Below the pieces are notes generated by a model, which was given only the letters and a program-made list of their open reading frames with translations, had not been told where the DNA came from and did no database searches. A stretch of DNA of 34,119 nucleotides from Clostridiales bacterium (GTDB taxonomy: Bacteria > Bacillota > Clostridia > Tissierellales > GPF-1): contig JABXKS010000084.1 of the NCBI GenBank assembly GCA_013619125.1, positions 127,530 to 161,648 of the forward strand, written 5' to 3'. Positions 3,712-33,248 of this stretch are shown here, piece after piece (the first letter of the stretch is position 1; every line of letters begins with the position of its first letter). A program made the translations under genes and the position numbers.

Positions 3712-3751
3712 TTATCCACATGTTTTTCAGAAAATTTATAATTTATCCACA
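3712..3751 (+). promoter_or_regulatory. pair of DnaA boxes
   Basis: Two perfect TTATCCACA nonamers (3712-3720 and 3743-3751) lie in the same orientation, 31 bp apart, about three helical turns, with an AT-rich spacer. The second is inside the 3' end of the SOUL gene. They border the helicase promoter. Binding is inferred from sequence only. Confidence 0.6.
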
Positions 3752-4284
3752 TGCAAACGCTCTCTTCCCCCATCATCCAGATCTTCTTTCCAATTGATCC
3801 CAATCATCACCTCGTTTCTGCGAAGAAACGGTACTTGAAATGGCGGATCGTAAAACGCAGTGACCCGCATACCCGATTCTACCCACCCATTTTTTTGAAT
3901 CCACTCATGCAAACTCGCTTCTTTGCTCTGAATTTTTCTTTCACTCGCAAATCCAGAAAAGCGAAGAACCGCCACATGGGTCCATGTCATTTGCTGTATT
4001 CCAACACTTGCATCCATAGGAGACGGCACACCCGCCTGATACTTTTTCGGCACTACAAATGCCATCGTTCTTTTCTGCGCATTTTGTTCTTGAATAACCG
4101 GAACGGTCATCGATATTTTTTCTTGGGTTTCATTGGCTCCGGAAATATACGAAAACAAGGTGCGAAATCCATCATTCCGATTCGTCATATCGACACTGAC
4201 CACTTGAAAATCCTTGTATCGGCGCAGTTCAAACATGTCTTCTTTTTCTTCAACGGTATATTCCGGCGACTCATATGAAGACAT
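3736..4284 (-). CDS. SOUL-family heme-binding-like protein
   Basis: A 182-residue protein of the SOUL/HBP family. It shows the hallmarks PEYTVEEKEDMFELRRY at the N-terminus, FSYISGANETQEKISMTVPV in the middle (about 44-63) and YDPPFQVPFLRRNEVMI near the C-terminus. The family binds heme or other tetrapyrroles in eukaryotes; bacterial members are usually annotated as heme-binding, but their role is poorly established. No signal peptide is present, so it is likely cytoplasmic. The ATG is preceded by GGGAGGTGA. It is upstream of the helicase on the same strand but has no visible terminator; the helicase has its own candidate promoter. Confidence 0.9.
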   Translation of the reverse strand: MSSYESPEYTVEEKEDMFELRRYKDFQVVSVDMTNRNDGFRTLFSYISGANETQEKISMTVPVIQEQNAQKRTMAFVVPKKYQAGVPSPMDASVGIQQMTWTHVAVLRFSGFASERKIQSKEASLHEWIQKNGWVESGMRVTAFYDPPFQVPFLRRNEVMIGINWKEDLDDGGRERLHVDKL

Positions 4285-7096: not shown

Positions 7097-7130
7097 AGAA
7101 ATCCCGAACAAATTGTTCGGGATTTCTATA
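7097..7130 (+). terminator. hairpin terminator between convergent genes
   Basis: A stem of up to 15 bp (AGAAATCCCGAAC paired with GTTCGGGATTTCT, 7097-7127) lies 6 bases after the DAHP synthase stop. The T tract is poor on the plus strand; on the minus strand it reads ...CTTTTTGC, so it may end transcription from both sides. Confidence 0.7.
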
Positions 7131-7157: not shown

Positions 7158-7577
7158 CTACTCGTCGACTAAAGTTCCTACCCAAGAAATGTCCTCGAGC
7201 TTTCCAACTCCATGCGGCGCAGCCTTCAACATCTCAGAAATGTCTGTCCCCGCCATATTGCCCCCATGTTCACCAGTGGTCCATTCTGGATGTTCCGATA
7301 CATCGTAAATCAATCCATCCACTGCCACATAAGCTGGCATACCATCCTTTCCGTTATAGGCGGCTAACTCTTCCAAGGTCAATAAATTCATACCGCCATC
7401 TTGAAGTACCGCTCCTTCTTCATCTACAATTCCGCCCGACAATGGAACTTCTTCCTCTTCAATCTGCACCGCAATTTCCGGTTCTTCCATCATTACCGGG
7501 TCAACCGCTCCCCGTTCCGACGAACAGCCAACGATAAACAAAGCGACTAGAATCATCAAACCAATCAAGCGTTTCAT
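7158..7577 (-). CDS. lipoprotein with cytochrome b5-like heme-binding domain
   Basis: From the ATG after TAGGAGAG the protein is 139 residues. It has a lipoprotein signal (MKRLIGLMILVALFIVGC, Cys18), an acidic low-complexity linker (about 25-60) and a C-terminal cytochrome b5-like domain (about 66-137). The domain holds LTLEELAAYNGKDG, AYVAVDGLIYDVSEHPEW and TTGEHGGNMAGTD...APHG. His104 (GEHGG) and His122 (APHG) are the likely axial heme ligands by comparison with the bacterial family. It would face outside the cell on a lipid anchor. The gene starts just after the stop of the b561-like membrane protein, so the two probably form an electron-transfer pair. An in-frame upstream extension to 7640 has no ribosome-binding site. 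Confidence 0.88.
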   Translation of the reverse strand: MKRLIGLMILVALFIVGCSSERGAVDPVMMEEPEIAVQIEEEEVPLSGGIVDEEGAVLQDGGMNLLTLEELAAYNGKDGMPAYVAVDGLIYDVSEHPEWTTGEHGGNMAGTDISEMLKAAPHGVGKLEDISWVGTLVDE

Positions 7578-7587
7578 ATTTACTCTC

Positions 7588-7971
7588 CTATCCGAGGGCT
7601 GTGCGATAAAACACATGCAACCCCAACAAAACCAAAACAATCAGAGAGACCAATCGATGCAATTTCCTCAAACTTCTGACTTTTTTGAGCAATCCAATTC
7701 CCAATAAACCTTGGATCAGAACAAAGAGATATAGCAGATACCCCGTATGGCGAAAGTTCCACCCCCATGCCAGATAGCCGTGTAAAACTCCTGTCGCCAC
7801 TAAAATCCCACCAAGAATTGGATGAAATCGGCGAATGAATTTTGCAACTAGCTTTGACCAAATCGGTTTCTTTGATCGCTTAAACCACTCAAAATACGGT
7901 CTGCGCAAAGAAAGTACCACTACTATACATGCATTGAAATATCCAAAGAATCGAACCATTTTATCACCCAT
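7588..7971 (-). CDS. small membrane protein with two H-x13-H motifs, putative diheme cytochrome b
   Basis: A 127-residue protein with about four hydrophobic segments. It carries His50 and His64, and again His105 and His119: two H-x13-H pairs, each placed so that both histidines lie on one helix. That spacing is the bis-histidyl heme-ligating pattern of cytochrome b, NADPH oxidase and ferric reductase membrane domains, where two helices hold two stacked b hemes. The function is therefore likely transmembrane electron transfer, probably to the cytochrome-b5-like lipoprotein encoded 10 nt downstream. I chose ATG 7971; ATG 7959 is also possible and TTG 7986 less so. No close family name comes to mind. 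Confidence 0.78.
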   Translation of the reverse strand: MGDKMVRFFGYFNACIVVVLSLRRPYFEWFKRSKKPIWSKLVAKFIRRFHPILGGILVATGVLHGYLAWGWNFRHTGYLLYLFVLIQGLLGIGLLKKVRSLRKLHRLVSLIVLVLLGLHVFYRTALG

Positions 7972-7984
7972 TATACTTTTACCC

Positions 7985-8008
7985 AAAAAAAAGATCTCTT
8001 ATGAGATC
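7985..8008 (-). terminator. terminator overlapping the stop of the diguanylate cyclase gene
   Basis: On the minus strand AGATCTC and GAGATCT pair around ATAA, followed by T8. The loop contains the TAA stop codon at 7999-8001. Confidence 0.8.
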
Positions 8009-9162
8009 TCCAAATTGGTCCGTTTCGCTTTCTTTCGTTTTTCTTCATACATCTGCCGATCAACAGTATCCAAAAACTCAAAAAATGTCATTTCATCCTC
8101 ACAGGTATACTCCGCAATCCCGGATGAGAAGCCATAGCGTATGGTTTCTCCACTTTCTGCGCGGTATTTCAACCATGTATCTTTCCATCGCGCATGAACA
8201 CGTTGCGCTTCTTCCGCATTCTGGAATAAAATACAAAATTCATCTCCCCGATACCGTACAATTTGATCCTCCTTACGAAGATCCTCCTTTATTTGAGAAA
8301 CAAAATGAATTAAAATATGATCCCCTATGACATGCCCATGCGTATCATTGATCTTCTTAAAATCATCCATATCAATAAACCATACGGCAAACGGATGCTT
8401 GTGATGCAGCCACTCCGTGATCTTGCGTTGCATAAACCTTCGATTAAATGCACCCGTCAGTTCATCTTGAATCAACGTAGGATTTAACTTATGCACGCCG
8501 GAATGGCGTAAAATCTCACCTTGCATTGGTAGAAGTGCCATCATGATCATCAACACACCAACATTCCCACCGACCGCCTCGACATAGACCAATAACAAGG
8601 TAATTGCCACGTGATAGTAAATAGAAAGTATCGTTGTTGTGGCTGTGTAGCTCTTGAGCCTATAGGTTTGTGTGTACAACGATATCTTGGTCCCCACAAG
8701 AAGTGCATTGACCACAATAAATAACAAACTCGCCATCGTCCAACTGAAAATCCCTGAAGCCGATACCGGATTAATTCCGAAAAACAGCAACCGAATCAAC
8801 GCTGCAATGAAAATAAACCGAGTTAGATTAAAACACCATTTAATATCAAAGAAATGTTCCTGCTCATGATAATAATACTTTTGAAAAAGCTTCCCCGAGG
8901 AAGTGAACAGCAAGATCATCAACAGCACAAACCAAAACGGTTGAGTTGCTACAGCCAAAATGGTCAAGGGACCTGAAAAAGACAAACTGATCTGATCATC
9001 ATAAAACATCTGCATAACTTCCATATACACCGCGGAACCCACGAGCAACCACCCCAATGGTTCAACTGATCCACCACTCTCCTGTTTCAACAAAATACGC
9101 GCAACCAATAGTGCCGTTACGGCCATTAAACTCCCTAAAAATATCCGATATTCCCGTTTCAT
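7999..9162 (-). CDS. membrane diguanylate cyclase (GGDEF)
   Basis: A 387-residue protein with about six to seven N-terminal membrane helices (residues 5-210) and a C-terminal GGDEF domain (about 220-385) that makes cyclic di-GMP from GTP. The active-site loop reads RYRGDEF, an accepted RGDEF variant. RKED lies exactly five residues before it, so the RxxD product-inhibition I-site is intact. The domain also shows the DELTGAFNRRF entry motif and FIDMDDFKKINDTHGH. The ATG at 9162 follows GGAGG; the TTG at 9174 would overlap that site. A type IV prepilin-like gene is divergent. The membrane sensor part is not a MASE domain I can name. Confidence 0.94.
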   Translation of the reverse strand: MKREYRIFLGSLMAVTALLVARILLKQESGGSVEPLGWLLVGSAVYMEVMQMFYDDQISLSFSGPLTILAVATQPFWFVLLMILLFTSSGKLFQKYYYHEQEHFFDIKWCFNLTRFIFIAALIRLLFFGINPVSASGIFSWTMASLLFIVVNALLVGTKISLYTQTYRLKSYTATTTILSIYYHVAITLLLVYVEAVGGNVGVLMIMMALLPMQGEILRHSGVHKLNPTLIQDELTGAFNRRFMQRKITEWLHHKHPFAVWFIDMDDFKKINDTHGHVIGDHILIHFVSQIKEDLRKEDQIVRYRGDEFCILFQNAEEAQRVHARWKDTWLKYRAESGETIRYGFSSGIAEYTCEDEMTFFEFLDTVDRQMYEEKRKKAKRTNLEIS

Positions 9163-31460: not shown

Positions 31461-33248
31461 CTATTTTGCTGCGTTCTGTCCAGCAATTCGACCGAATACT
31501 GTAATATCTGCAATCGCGTTGCTGCCCAAACGATTTTTGCCGTGAATGCCGCCTGTTACTTCGCCAGCCGCAAACAATCCTTCAATGACACTACCTTCAA
31601 GATCAACCACTTGAGCGCTCTCATTGATCATGATTCCGCCCATGGTATGATGAACTGCCGGTACCGCTTTCAAAATATAGTATGGTGCTTTTTCAATCGT
31701 TGACGGTAAGCTTCGTTTGTTGAATTCTGGATCTACGCCGTCAGCAACGTAGCTGTTATAATTGTCGACTGTTGTTTTCAATTCTGCCGCATCTATGCCA
31801 TAGAAGGCTGCCGCTTCTTCCAACGTATCCGCTTTTACGAACAGATCATTATTGTACAAGTACTCAATCTCTGCCGCATGATTCTCTTGCAAGTAACTCT
31901 TTTCAAATCCATTTTGGTCCATCAATTCATAACAAACACTGCCTGTTTGTGCTTTGATTCCCATGGACATCACATCGCGACGTCCTAATTCCTCAACAAA
32001 TCGCTTACCTTCCAAGTTCACGATCACCGTATGTCCGTATAGACGGGCATCATCCACATACAACAAGGTACCGGATAAAGGATCGCAAATTGGATAAGTT
32101 TGAATAAATTCCATGCCAGTCAAATCCGCGCCAACAGCTTCTGCCATCACAATGCCATCACCTGTGCTTCCCGGTGAGTTAGTGGAAAGAATCGATCCAT
32201 CGATATCTGGATTGTACTTCACGCGCATTTCCACATTGGATCCGAAACCGCCTGATGCAATAATCACTGCTTTGTTGGTTTCGAAGATATAATCATTCTC
32301 TTTTCCTTCCGCTTCTACACCAACAACTTTGCCGGTTTCATCGGTGATCAATGCTGTTGCTTTCGTATTCAATAGAACCGGAATTCCCATCTCTTCTGCT
32401 TTTACCAATTGCTTGGTAATAATCGCTCGTCCGCTTGCTCCTTCAGGAACCAAGCTTCGTTTTGCGGAATGACCACCAAACTGCATCAATTCGTCTTCCC
32501 AAACAACGCCGACAAAGTCACGCAACCACTCGGCGCCTGCAAGGGCGTTTTCCGCAACCACACGAACCAATGCCGGATCATTGACATAATCTCCGCCTTT
32601 TAGCGTATCTTCGATATGTTGTTCAATGCTATCTTCAATGCCCATTTCCTTTTGCATCCAGTTGTTGGAAGCCGCATATTCGGCCCCAGAGATCAAGGTG
32701 TTACCACCTGCTGCCGGCATCTTCTCCAAGACAATAACATTCGCGCCTGCCGCTTTGGCTTCAATGGCTGCTGTCAGTCCTGCTCCACCTGCGCCAATGA
32801 CAACGACGTCGCATTTTTCCGTTACAGTTTCTCTCTCTGTCGTCACTTCTGCAACTTCGATTTTTTTCAGCATATCCGGTGTCGCATTTGCTGCACCCAA
32901 CGCCGCTGTTACCGCTTCAACAAAACCATTGGACGTTACGCTTGCTCCCGCAACCACATCCACTTCCAAGGAATTGATACGAAGAATTTCTTCGGTCAAA
33001 GTCCCAATCGCTTGGTCCAATCCCTCTGTTTCGTTTTGGCTAAGGACATTGATGGCTGTGATGACATCCTCTTCAATCGTCACCTCAACCGAAATATCTC
33101 CGCCCTTGCCTTCGCCTACCCCTGTATAGGTACCATTCTCGATAGCTGTCTTTGCAGCCTCCGGTTCTTCAACCGTAGCACCTTGTGAACAACCTGTTGC
33201 CGTAACAATCATGGCAATCATAAGTAAATAAATCATAATTTTCTTCAT
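31461..33248 (-). CDS. lipoprotein FMN/FAD fumarate-reductase-like oxidoreductase
   Basis: A 595-residue extracellular flavoprotein. It has a lipoprotein signal (TATGC, Cys20) and an FMN-binding domain (about 38-120) with the covalent attachment motif GASVTS (Thr105). A FAD-binding fumarate/urocanate reductase-type domain (about 145-595) has Rossmann motif GAGGAGLTA (152-160), EKMPAAGGNT, HHTMGGIMIN and the C-terminal GSNAIADITVFGRIAG. Such enzymes reduce an unsaturated acid outside the membrane, with electrons arriving through the FMN. The exact acceptor (fumarate, urocanate, acrylate-type acids) cannot be told by eye. GGGGG-rich sequence precedes the ATG. A Cache-sensor gene is divergent, which may sense the same acid. 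Confidence 0.93.
   Translation of the reverse strand: MKKIMIYLLMIAMIVTATGCSQGATVEEPEAAKTAIENGTYTGVGEGKGGDISVEVTIEEDVITAINVLSQNETEGLDQAIGTLTEEILRINSLEVDVVAGASVTSNGFVEAVTAALGAANATPDMLKKIEVAEVTTERETVTEKCDVVVIGAGGAGLTAAIEAKAAGANVIVLEKMPAAGGNTLISGAEYAASNNWMQKEMGIEDSIEQHIEDTLKGGDYVNDPALVRVVAENALAGAEWLRDFVGVVWEDELMQFGGHSAKRSLVPEGASGRAIITKQLVKAEEMGIPVLLNTKATALITDETGKVVGVEAEGKENDYIFETNKAVIIASGGFGSNVEMRVKYNPDIDGSILSTNSPGSTGDGIVMAEAVGADLTGMEFIQTYPICDPLSGTLLYVDDARLYGHTVIVNLEGKRFVEELGRRDVMSMGIKAQTGSVCYELMDQNGFEKSYLQENHAAEIEYLYNNDLFVKADTLEEAAAFYGIDAAELKTTVDNYNSYVADGVDPEFNKRSLPSTIEKAPYYILKAVPAVHHTMGGIMINESAQVVDLEGSVIEGLFAAGEVTGGIHGKNRLGSNAIADITVFGRIAGQNAAK

Follow-up and report, generated by a model that had tools for sequence, protein, structure and literature searches.

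The window analysed here, a 34,119-nucleotide stretch of a genome labelled Clostridiales, contains two small adjacent genes, and the question they raise is whether a membrane protein of little more than 120 residues and a lipoprotein could together carry electrons across the membrane of an anaerobe. Both genes lie on the minus strand, that for the putative diheme membrane cytochrome (7588..7971) coming first and being followed after a gap of 10 nt by that for a cytochrome b5 lipoprotein (7158..7577; 139 aa, with a lipobox Cys18, an acidic linker and a b5 domain at about residues 63-137). The initial annotation gave the membrane protein 127 residues, and a gene of that length does start at the ATG at 7971; a product of 123 aa from the ATG at 7959 is likelier, since the corresponding Met5 is invariant in nine aligned sequences (the window protein and eight relatives). 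A terminator-like hairpin that matches the consensus (7990..8011, minus strand) separates the pair from the GGDEF gene upstream, and a palindromic one lies 3' of the b5 gene, before the convergent DAHP synthase gene (7097..7127, minus strand). These two compare with 0.7 expected in shuffles of the pair region, where no sigma-70-like promoter was found on the strand of the pair. With hairpins both before and after it, the pair probably forms a separate transcription unit. A SOUL heme-binding protein (PF04832, 158 bits) is encoded at 3736-4284 on the same strand, 2.9 kb from the b5 gene.

In the cores of cytochrome b and the ferric reductases, one heme ligand pair is carried on each of two helices with a spacing of 13 residues. 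The window membrane protein has two such pairs, His50-x13-His64 and His105-x13-His119, and at least two H-x13-H pairs occur in 0.6% of 200,000 letter shuffles of its sequence. Distinct proteins of at least 100 aa drawn from the related-genome, class and b5-contig collections form a family of 54 members, window protein included, with identities to it of 15% to 74% (mostly 15-37%). All four histidines and the exact 13/13 spacing are kept in 54 of 54, a conservation that weighs more than the shuffling result but is partly circular because the profiles used to find members include these columns; the sole other invariant position is Gly77 (54/54). When the 398-genome phylum sample is added to this collection, the set grows to 65 distinct diheme proteins, every one with at least two H-x13-H motifs. 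Left out of the counts are three diheme frames shorter than 100 aa (the two pieces of the split frame L035 and the cut frame of L011), the decayed copies in G001 and G454, and L083, where the match lies at a contig end and no b5 frame was called. The loop residue His75 was considered as a fifth ligand and rejected as a general one, being His in only 36 of the 54 members and Arg in the nearest relative.

An AlphaFold2 model of the protein from 24 sequences (pLDDT 86.7) has helices at residues 2-21, 23-32, 36-68, 76-96 and 99-121, and it places His50 and His64 on the helix 36-68 and His105 and His119 on the helix 99-121, so that each pair would sit on a single helix, as the initial annotation had supposed. 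When the two halves of the diheme profile are aligned with one another, the histidines coincide; hhalign gives this match a probability of 85%, whereas none of eight column-shuffled controls exceeds 4.4%. This suggests internal duplication of a two-helix unit; the shared ligand spacing alone could contribute to such a match. Structural comparison with VIA-align finds superoxide oxidase (5oc0, Z 11.0, rmsd 2.9, 117 residues aligned), cytochrome b6 (2e74, Z 10.7), the designed diheme protein 4D2 (7ah0, Z 10.7), STEAP1 (Z 10.3) and NOX5 (Z 10.0) among the neighbours of the model. The highest score, however, belongs to a designed protein, ABLE (6w6x, Z 12.2), and unrelated helical bundles do equally well. 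As a Z below about 13 for a helical bundle may reflect no more than a common arrangement, the fold match serves as supporting evidence only. The diheme profile retrieved nothing at E 5 from the sequences of solved structures, and Foldseek gave no match of the model to the PDB at E 0.001. In having a ligand pair per helix and the 13-residue spacing, the protein is like helices A-D of cytochrome b and of the ferric reductase, NOX and STEAP proteins (Z about 10-11), but with its ~123 residues it has neither their further quinone-site helices nor an NAD(P)H/FAD domain. These data support, as a prediction, a diheme four-helix membrane cytochrome.

Assignment to a described family is less direct. 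The window protein scores 22.7 bits against DUF4405 (PF14358), below the gathering cut-off of 26.7, and DUF4405 matches at E<=0.01 are seen in 7 of 24 aligned members (best E 1.2e-4, 23.0 bits, in L014), with 24.2 bits for the fused member L111. Prokaryotic cytochrome b561 (PF01292), the family to which superoxide oxidase belongs, gives 12.6 bits against a cut-off of 30.1, with 6 of the 24 members at E<=0.01 (best E 2e-4). For Ferric_reduct/MsrQ (PF01794, cut-off 28 bits) the window protein has no match at E<=1 and 5 of the 24 members have one at E<=0.01 (best E 1.6e-4), and NCBIfam yields no match for the window protein at E 0.01. The four central conserved histidines in a small membrane bundle, a feature of DUF4405, are present in all 54 members and in the model; by the Pfam cut-off the window protein is thus not DUF4405, though it resembles DUF4405 in layout.

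The b5 lipoprotein is recognized more readily. Its match to Pfam Cyt-b5 (PF00173) reaches 28.3 bits against a cut-off of 23.7 and is the sole PF00173 match in the genome at E 0.001. His104 is kept in 88 of 89 distinct b5 domains (the other has a gap) and His122 in 87 of 89, and these two residues would bind the iron as the b5 axial ligands. A model of the domain superposes on 6nzx of Hadesarchaea (Z 15.4, rmsd 0.9 Å over 75 residues) and on 6vz6 of Methanococcoides burtonii (Z 15.2, rmsd 1.1 Å over 76 residues) at 45% identity, and sequence searches find the same two entries at E 2e-13 and 5e-13, respectively; eukaryotic b5 and PGRMC1 are far poorer matches to the model (best Z 9.1). The archaeal chains are 76-78 residues long and consist of the domain alone, whereas the window protein adds a lipobox, an acidic tether and a membrane cytochrome partner. 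Among 83 distinct b5 frames, 62 show a lipobox pattern; the others may include cytosolic relatives as well as frames whose start was chosen wrongly. For the window protein, Cys18 of the lipobox and the Cyt-b5 match above cut-off support the predicted extracellular lipoprotein.

Whether the two genes belong together was assessed from both sides. A diheme match was found in 9 of 60 genomes in the related-genome sample (the window's own included), in 24 of 391 in the class sample and in 14 of 398 in the phylum sample, and none was found in G002, the third genome of the window's genus. From the other side, the best 80 of 112 b5 relatives were used as loci: a diheme gene adjoins b5 in 25 of these best 80, counting the split frame L035, and no such gene lies beside b5 in 55 (a few of them cut by contig ends). 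Same-strand b5 neighbours accompany 33 of the 65 distinct diheme proteins; in 30 of these b5 comes first, and in 3 the order is that of the window, with the diheme gene preceding b5. One further protein (L120, 240 aa) is fused to b5. Nine others, of 286-318 aa (L104, L105, L107, L109-L112, L117 and L131), are fused to an FMN_bind domain that scores 34.7 to 60.2 bits, in each case above the Pfam cut-off of 22, and for 22 of the 65 neither b5 nor FMN_bind was seen within the flanking DNA examined. As 20 of the 65 were found solely through the b5-first search, the remaining 45 may be considered on their own: 13 adjoin b5, 1 is a b5 fusion, 9 are FMN_bind fusions and 22 have neither. The 22 diheme proteins without b5 or FMN_bind and the 55 of the best 80 b5 loci without a diheme gene indicate that neither part strictly needs the other. 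The pair nonetheless recurs in other genomes, mostly in records labelled clostridial, and is predicted to be a conserved unit; the statement of the initial annotation that no other redox partner is fused holds for the window but not for the family. That the same membrane module serves b5 or FMN outside would point to an electron-transfer device and not to a dedicated enzyme.

The genes around the relatives indicate which redox systems the pair may serve. In Lacrimispora (L031:145-5633) b5 and diheme genes lie 198 nt downstream of an rnfC-D-G-E-A-B operon, in which rnfG was called by eye and the others score above NCBIfam cut-offs, and an RnfB-like gene (by eye) precedes the b5 gene in L041 and L038. 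A FAD_binding_2 protein, its N-terminus cut by the contig end, lies directly before the b5-diheme pair in L027 and L030, which are two contigs of a single MAG. In L099 and L100 an NAD_binding_1/FAD_binding_6 reductase is separated by one gene from a diheme gene that has no b5; the intervening gene encodes a 152-aa protein (L099:1891-2349 and L100:1009-1467), for which there is no Pfam match in L099. L108 has a Fer4_5 membrane protein, and in L103 an FMN_bind protein is encoded divergently from the diheme gene. Most of the other listed pairs have, by eye, unrelated neighbours. Neighbours resembling Ferric_reduct below the cut-off were also noted at the b5 loci L048 and L016.

The reading in which we have moderate confidence is that the pair forms a minimal transmembrane diheme conduit that hands electrons to the outer b5 and from there to outer flavoenzymes. 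A four-helix bundle of ~123 aa would hold, on two of its helices, a stack of two b hemes with bis-His ligation, one heme towards either face of the membrane; judged by eye from the positive loops, His50 and His105 would lie towards the inside and His64 and His119 towards the outside. The diheme protein would move electrons outwards across the membrane; b5, lipid-anchored and on a flexible acidic tether, would accept them singly and in turn reduce outer flavoenzymes. The analysis establishes the genes, the conservation of the ligand residues, the predicted fold, the recurring linkage and the fusions; heme loading, topology, direction, donor and acceptor are all elements that we infer. The b5 and FMN_bind fusions and the flavin reductase, Rnf and FAD_binding_2 neighbours fit the earlier proposal of electron transfer across the membrane, and the outward direction is the part of that proposal which should be read as presumed.

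The inner donor would probably depend on the host and may be Rnf, an NAD(P)H-flavin reductase or quinol. The window genome has two UbiA matches, one of them beside a UbiD-like gene (by eye). A model with quinone only was rejected: UbiA (PF01040) is matched in 21 of 40 diheme-carrying genomes and has no match in 19 of 40, which argues against quinol as the general donor. G454, in which the diheme copy is decayed, was not counted in this set, and among the carriers with at least 90% completeness and at most 5% contamination the match is present in 18 of 32. On the acceptor side, the window genome has ten FMN_bind matches. Six of these are lipoprotein-like proteins of 594-643 aa that combine FMN_bind with FAD_binding_2 and would be the most likely substrates of b5, and two others lie in Rnf-like and Nqr-like operons (by eye). 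Inspection by eye of the 1.5 kb flanks of the six genes revealed no evident membrane electron carrier. One of the six is encoded within the window (31461..33248, minus strand) and is a candidate electron acceptor of the pair; the nearest FMN/FAD reductase genes of this genome are separated from the two genes by over 20 kb and share no operon with them.

In the class sample, FMN_bind is present in 24 of 24 diheme carriers and in 269 of 367 non-carriers (p 8e-4, phylogeny ignored). We repeated the comparison without ten carriers that have actual or probable diheme-FMN fusions, eight of them confirmed by Pfam, the other two being G124 (a cut frame, with no FMN_bind match in the piece) and G175 (without a locus). 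At least one FMN_bind match is then found in 14 of 14 carriers against 269 of 367 (p 0.014), and at least two in 12 of 14 against 116 of 367 (p 7e-5), phylogeny again being ignored. Because of this, and because 293 of the 391 genomes have FMN_bind anyway, we give the enrichment among diheme carriers little weight.

Other roles for the pair can be weighed against the same evidence. One is oxygen or superoxide defence, whereby the diheme protein would take electrons from superoxide outside, as the superoxide oxidase of E. coli does, or deliver them for removal of O2 or peroxide, with b5 as its outer partner. The structural match to 5oc0 and the mostly clostridial distribution of the pair speak for such a role, as do the rubrerythrin-like DUF2202 genes beside b5 in L016 (5527-6141) and L018 (390-1004) and, in L016, a neighbouring protein of 200 aa whose Ferric_reduct match stays below the cut-off (22.3 against 28 bits). 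Neither of these two loci has a diheme partner of this family, however, superoxide oxidase has its heme ligands on different helices, the 19 of 40 carriers without a UbiA match leave superoxide oxidation without a general quinone acceptor, and the FMN_bind fusions together with the Rnf and FAD_binding_2 neighbours point to respiratory flavoproteins; we regard a defensive role as unlikely. We also doubt that the pair acts in iron or heme acquisition, whether through reduction of iron or heme from the ferric state at the cell surface or with b5 as a heme carrier. The STEAP1 and NOX5 cores among the structural neighbours and the nearby SOUL protein in the window are in its favour, and the DUF4405-like FezC belongs to ferrosomes according to PMC11334425. 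Against it, no iron or heme transporter was recognized by eye among the immediate neighbours of 20 pair loci (ABC-type ATPases in L024 and L085 are untyped), and two strongly kept axial histidines in b5 suit electron transfer more than heme hand-over. Reverse flow, with the diheme protein importing electrons that b5 has received outside, be it from RnfG, whose flavin faces outside, or from a donor in the surroundings, is improbable: the Rnf operon adjoins the pair in Lacrimispora and no sequence feature fixes the direction, but the NAD(P)H-type flavin reductase of L099 and L100 and the FAD_binding_2 proteins of L027 and L030 (possibly not secreted) fit export.

The conduit that we prefer has relatives in the literature. 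PMC11334425 describes DUF4405 and FezC as small membrane proteins in which four central histidines are best conserved, reports heme b binding by purified FezC and by one purified DUF4405 protein, and links DUF4405 genes with flavinylation gene clusters and extracytosolic flavoproteins. The nine FMN_bind fusions give the window family a similar flavoprotein association, but the partner here is a b5 lipoprotein, and 'cytochrome b' occurs 0 times in the main text of that paper. The accessible text of PMC8238504 likewise contains 0 occurrences of DUF4405 and of 'cytochrome b'. In PMC5898192, an arCOG04002/DUF4405-b5 fusion of Thermococcus barophilus is proposed to function in electron transfer. 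It joins the same two kinds of module, but it is an archaeal fusion with a two-TM half of cytochrome b561, whereas here the genes are mostly separate, the b5 is an outer lipoprotein, the records are labelled Bacillota and there are sometimes three b5 domains. The membrane cytochrome class and one b5 fusion precedent are thus already in print (PMC11334425, PMC5898192). A search of the openly accessible literature turned up no description of the diheme-b5 pair as two genes, nor of the Rnf and reductase genes beside it or of the variants with three b5 domains; its repeated occurrence as separate genes with a b5 lipoprotein outside, triple-b5 variants included, looks new.

If the proposed conduit is correct, various anaerobes of clostridial type possess an electron exporter that spans the membrane and is encoded by two genes. 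It could link outer flavin reductases with cytosolic donors, and standard annotation would miss it, as the window membrane protein has no NCBIfam match and falls below the Pfam cut-offs. The ~123-residue diheme protein would also be the equivalent in nature of minimal diheme bundles obtained by design, 4D2 among them, its small size suiting direct spectroscopy and mutagenesis.

In some relatives the b5 domain is multiplied. The genome G001, of the same genus as the window, has a decayed diheme copy with stops, then a triple-b5 lipoprotein and then an intact diheme-b5 pair, the first two forming a tandem duplicate of the cassette (L003:175-1281 and L011:1441-1740). The triple-b5 lipoprotein is 368 aa long and has an extended Asp-rich tail. 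L053, which adjoins a diheme gene, and L082 likewise have three b5 domains each, and L078 has two. Tentatively, one diheme module with exchangeable outer modules might constitute a b-heme route of extracellular electron transfer that needs neither c-type cytochromes nor a covalent flavin outer carrier, with the triple-b5 proteins of some lineages (L003 of G001, L053 and L082) as a three-heme relay, a short wire through the cell wall. There is a hint that b5 has been joined to membrane proteins several times; a b5-DUF2231 fusion (L086:5001-5714) and a CopD-b5 protein (L089:4377-5342) were observed as well.
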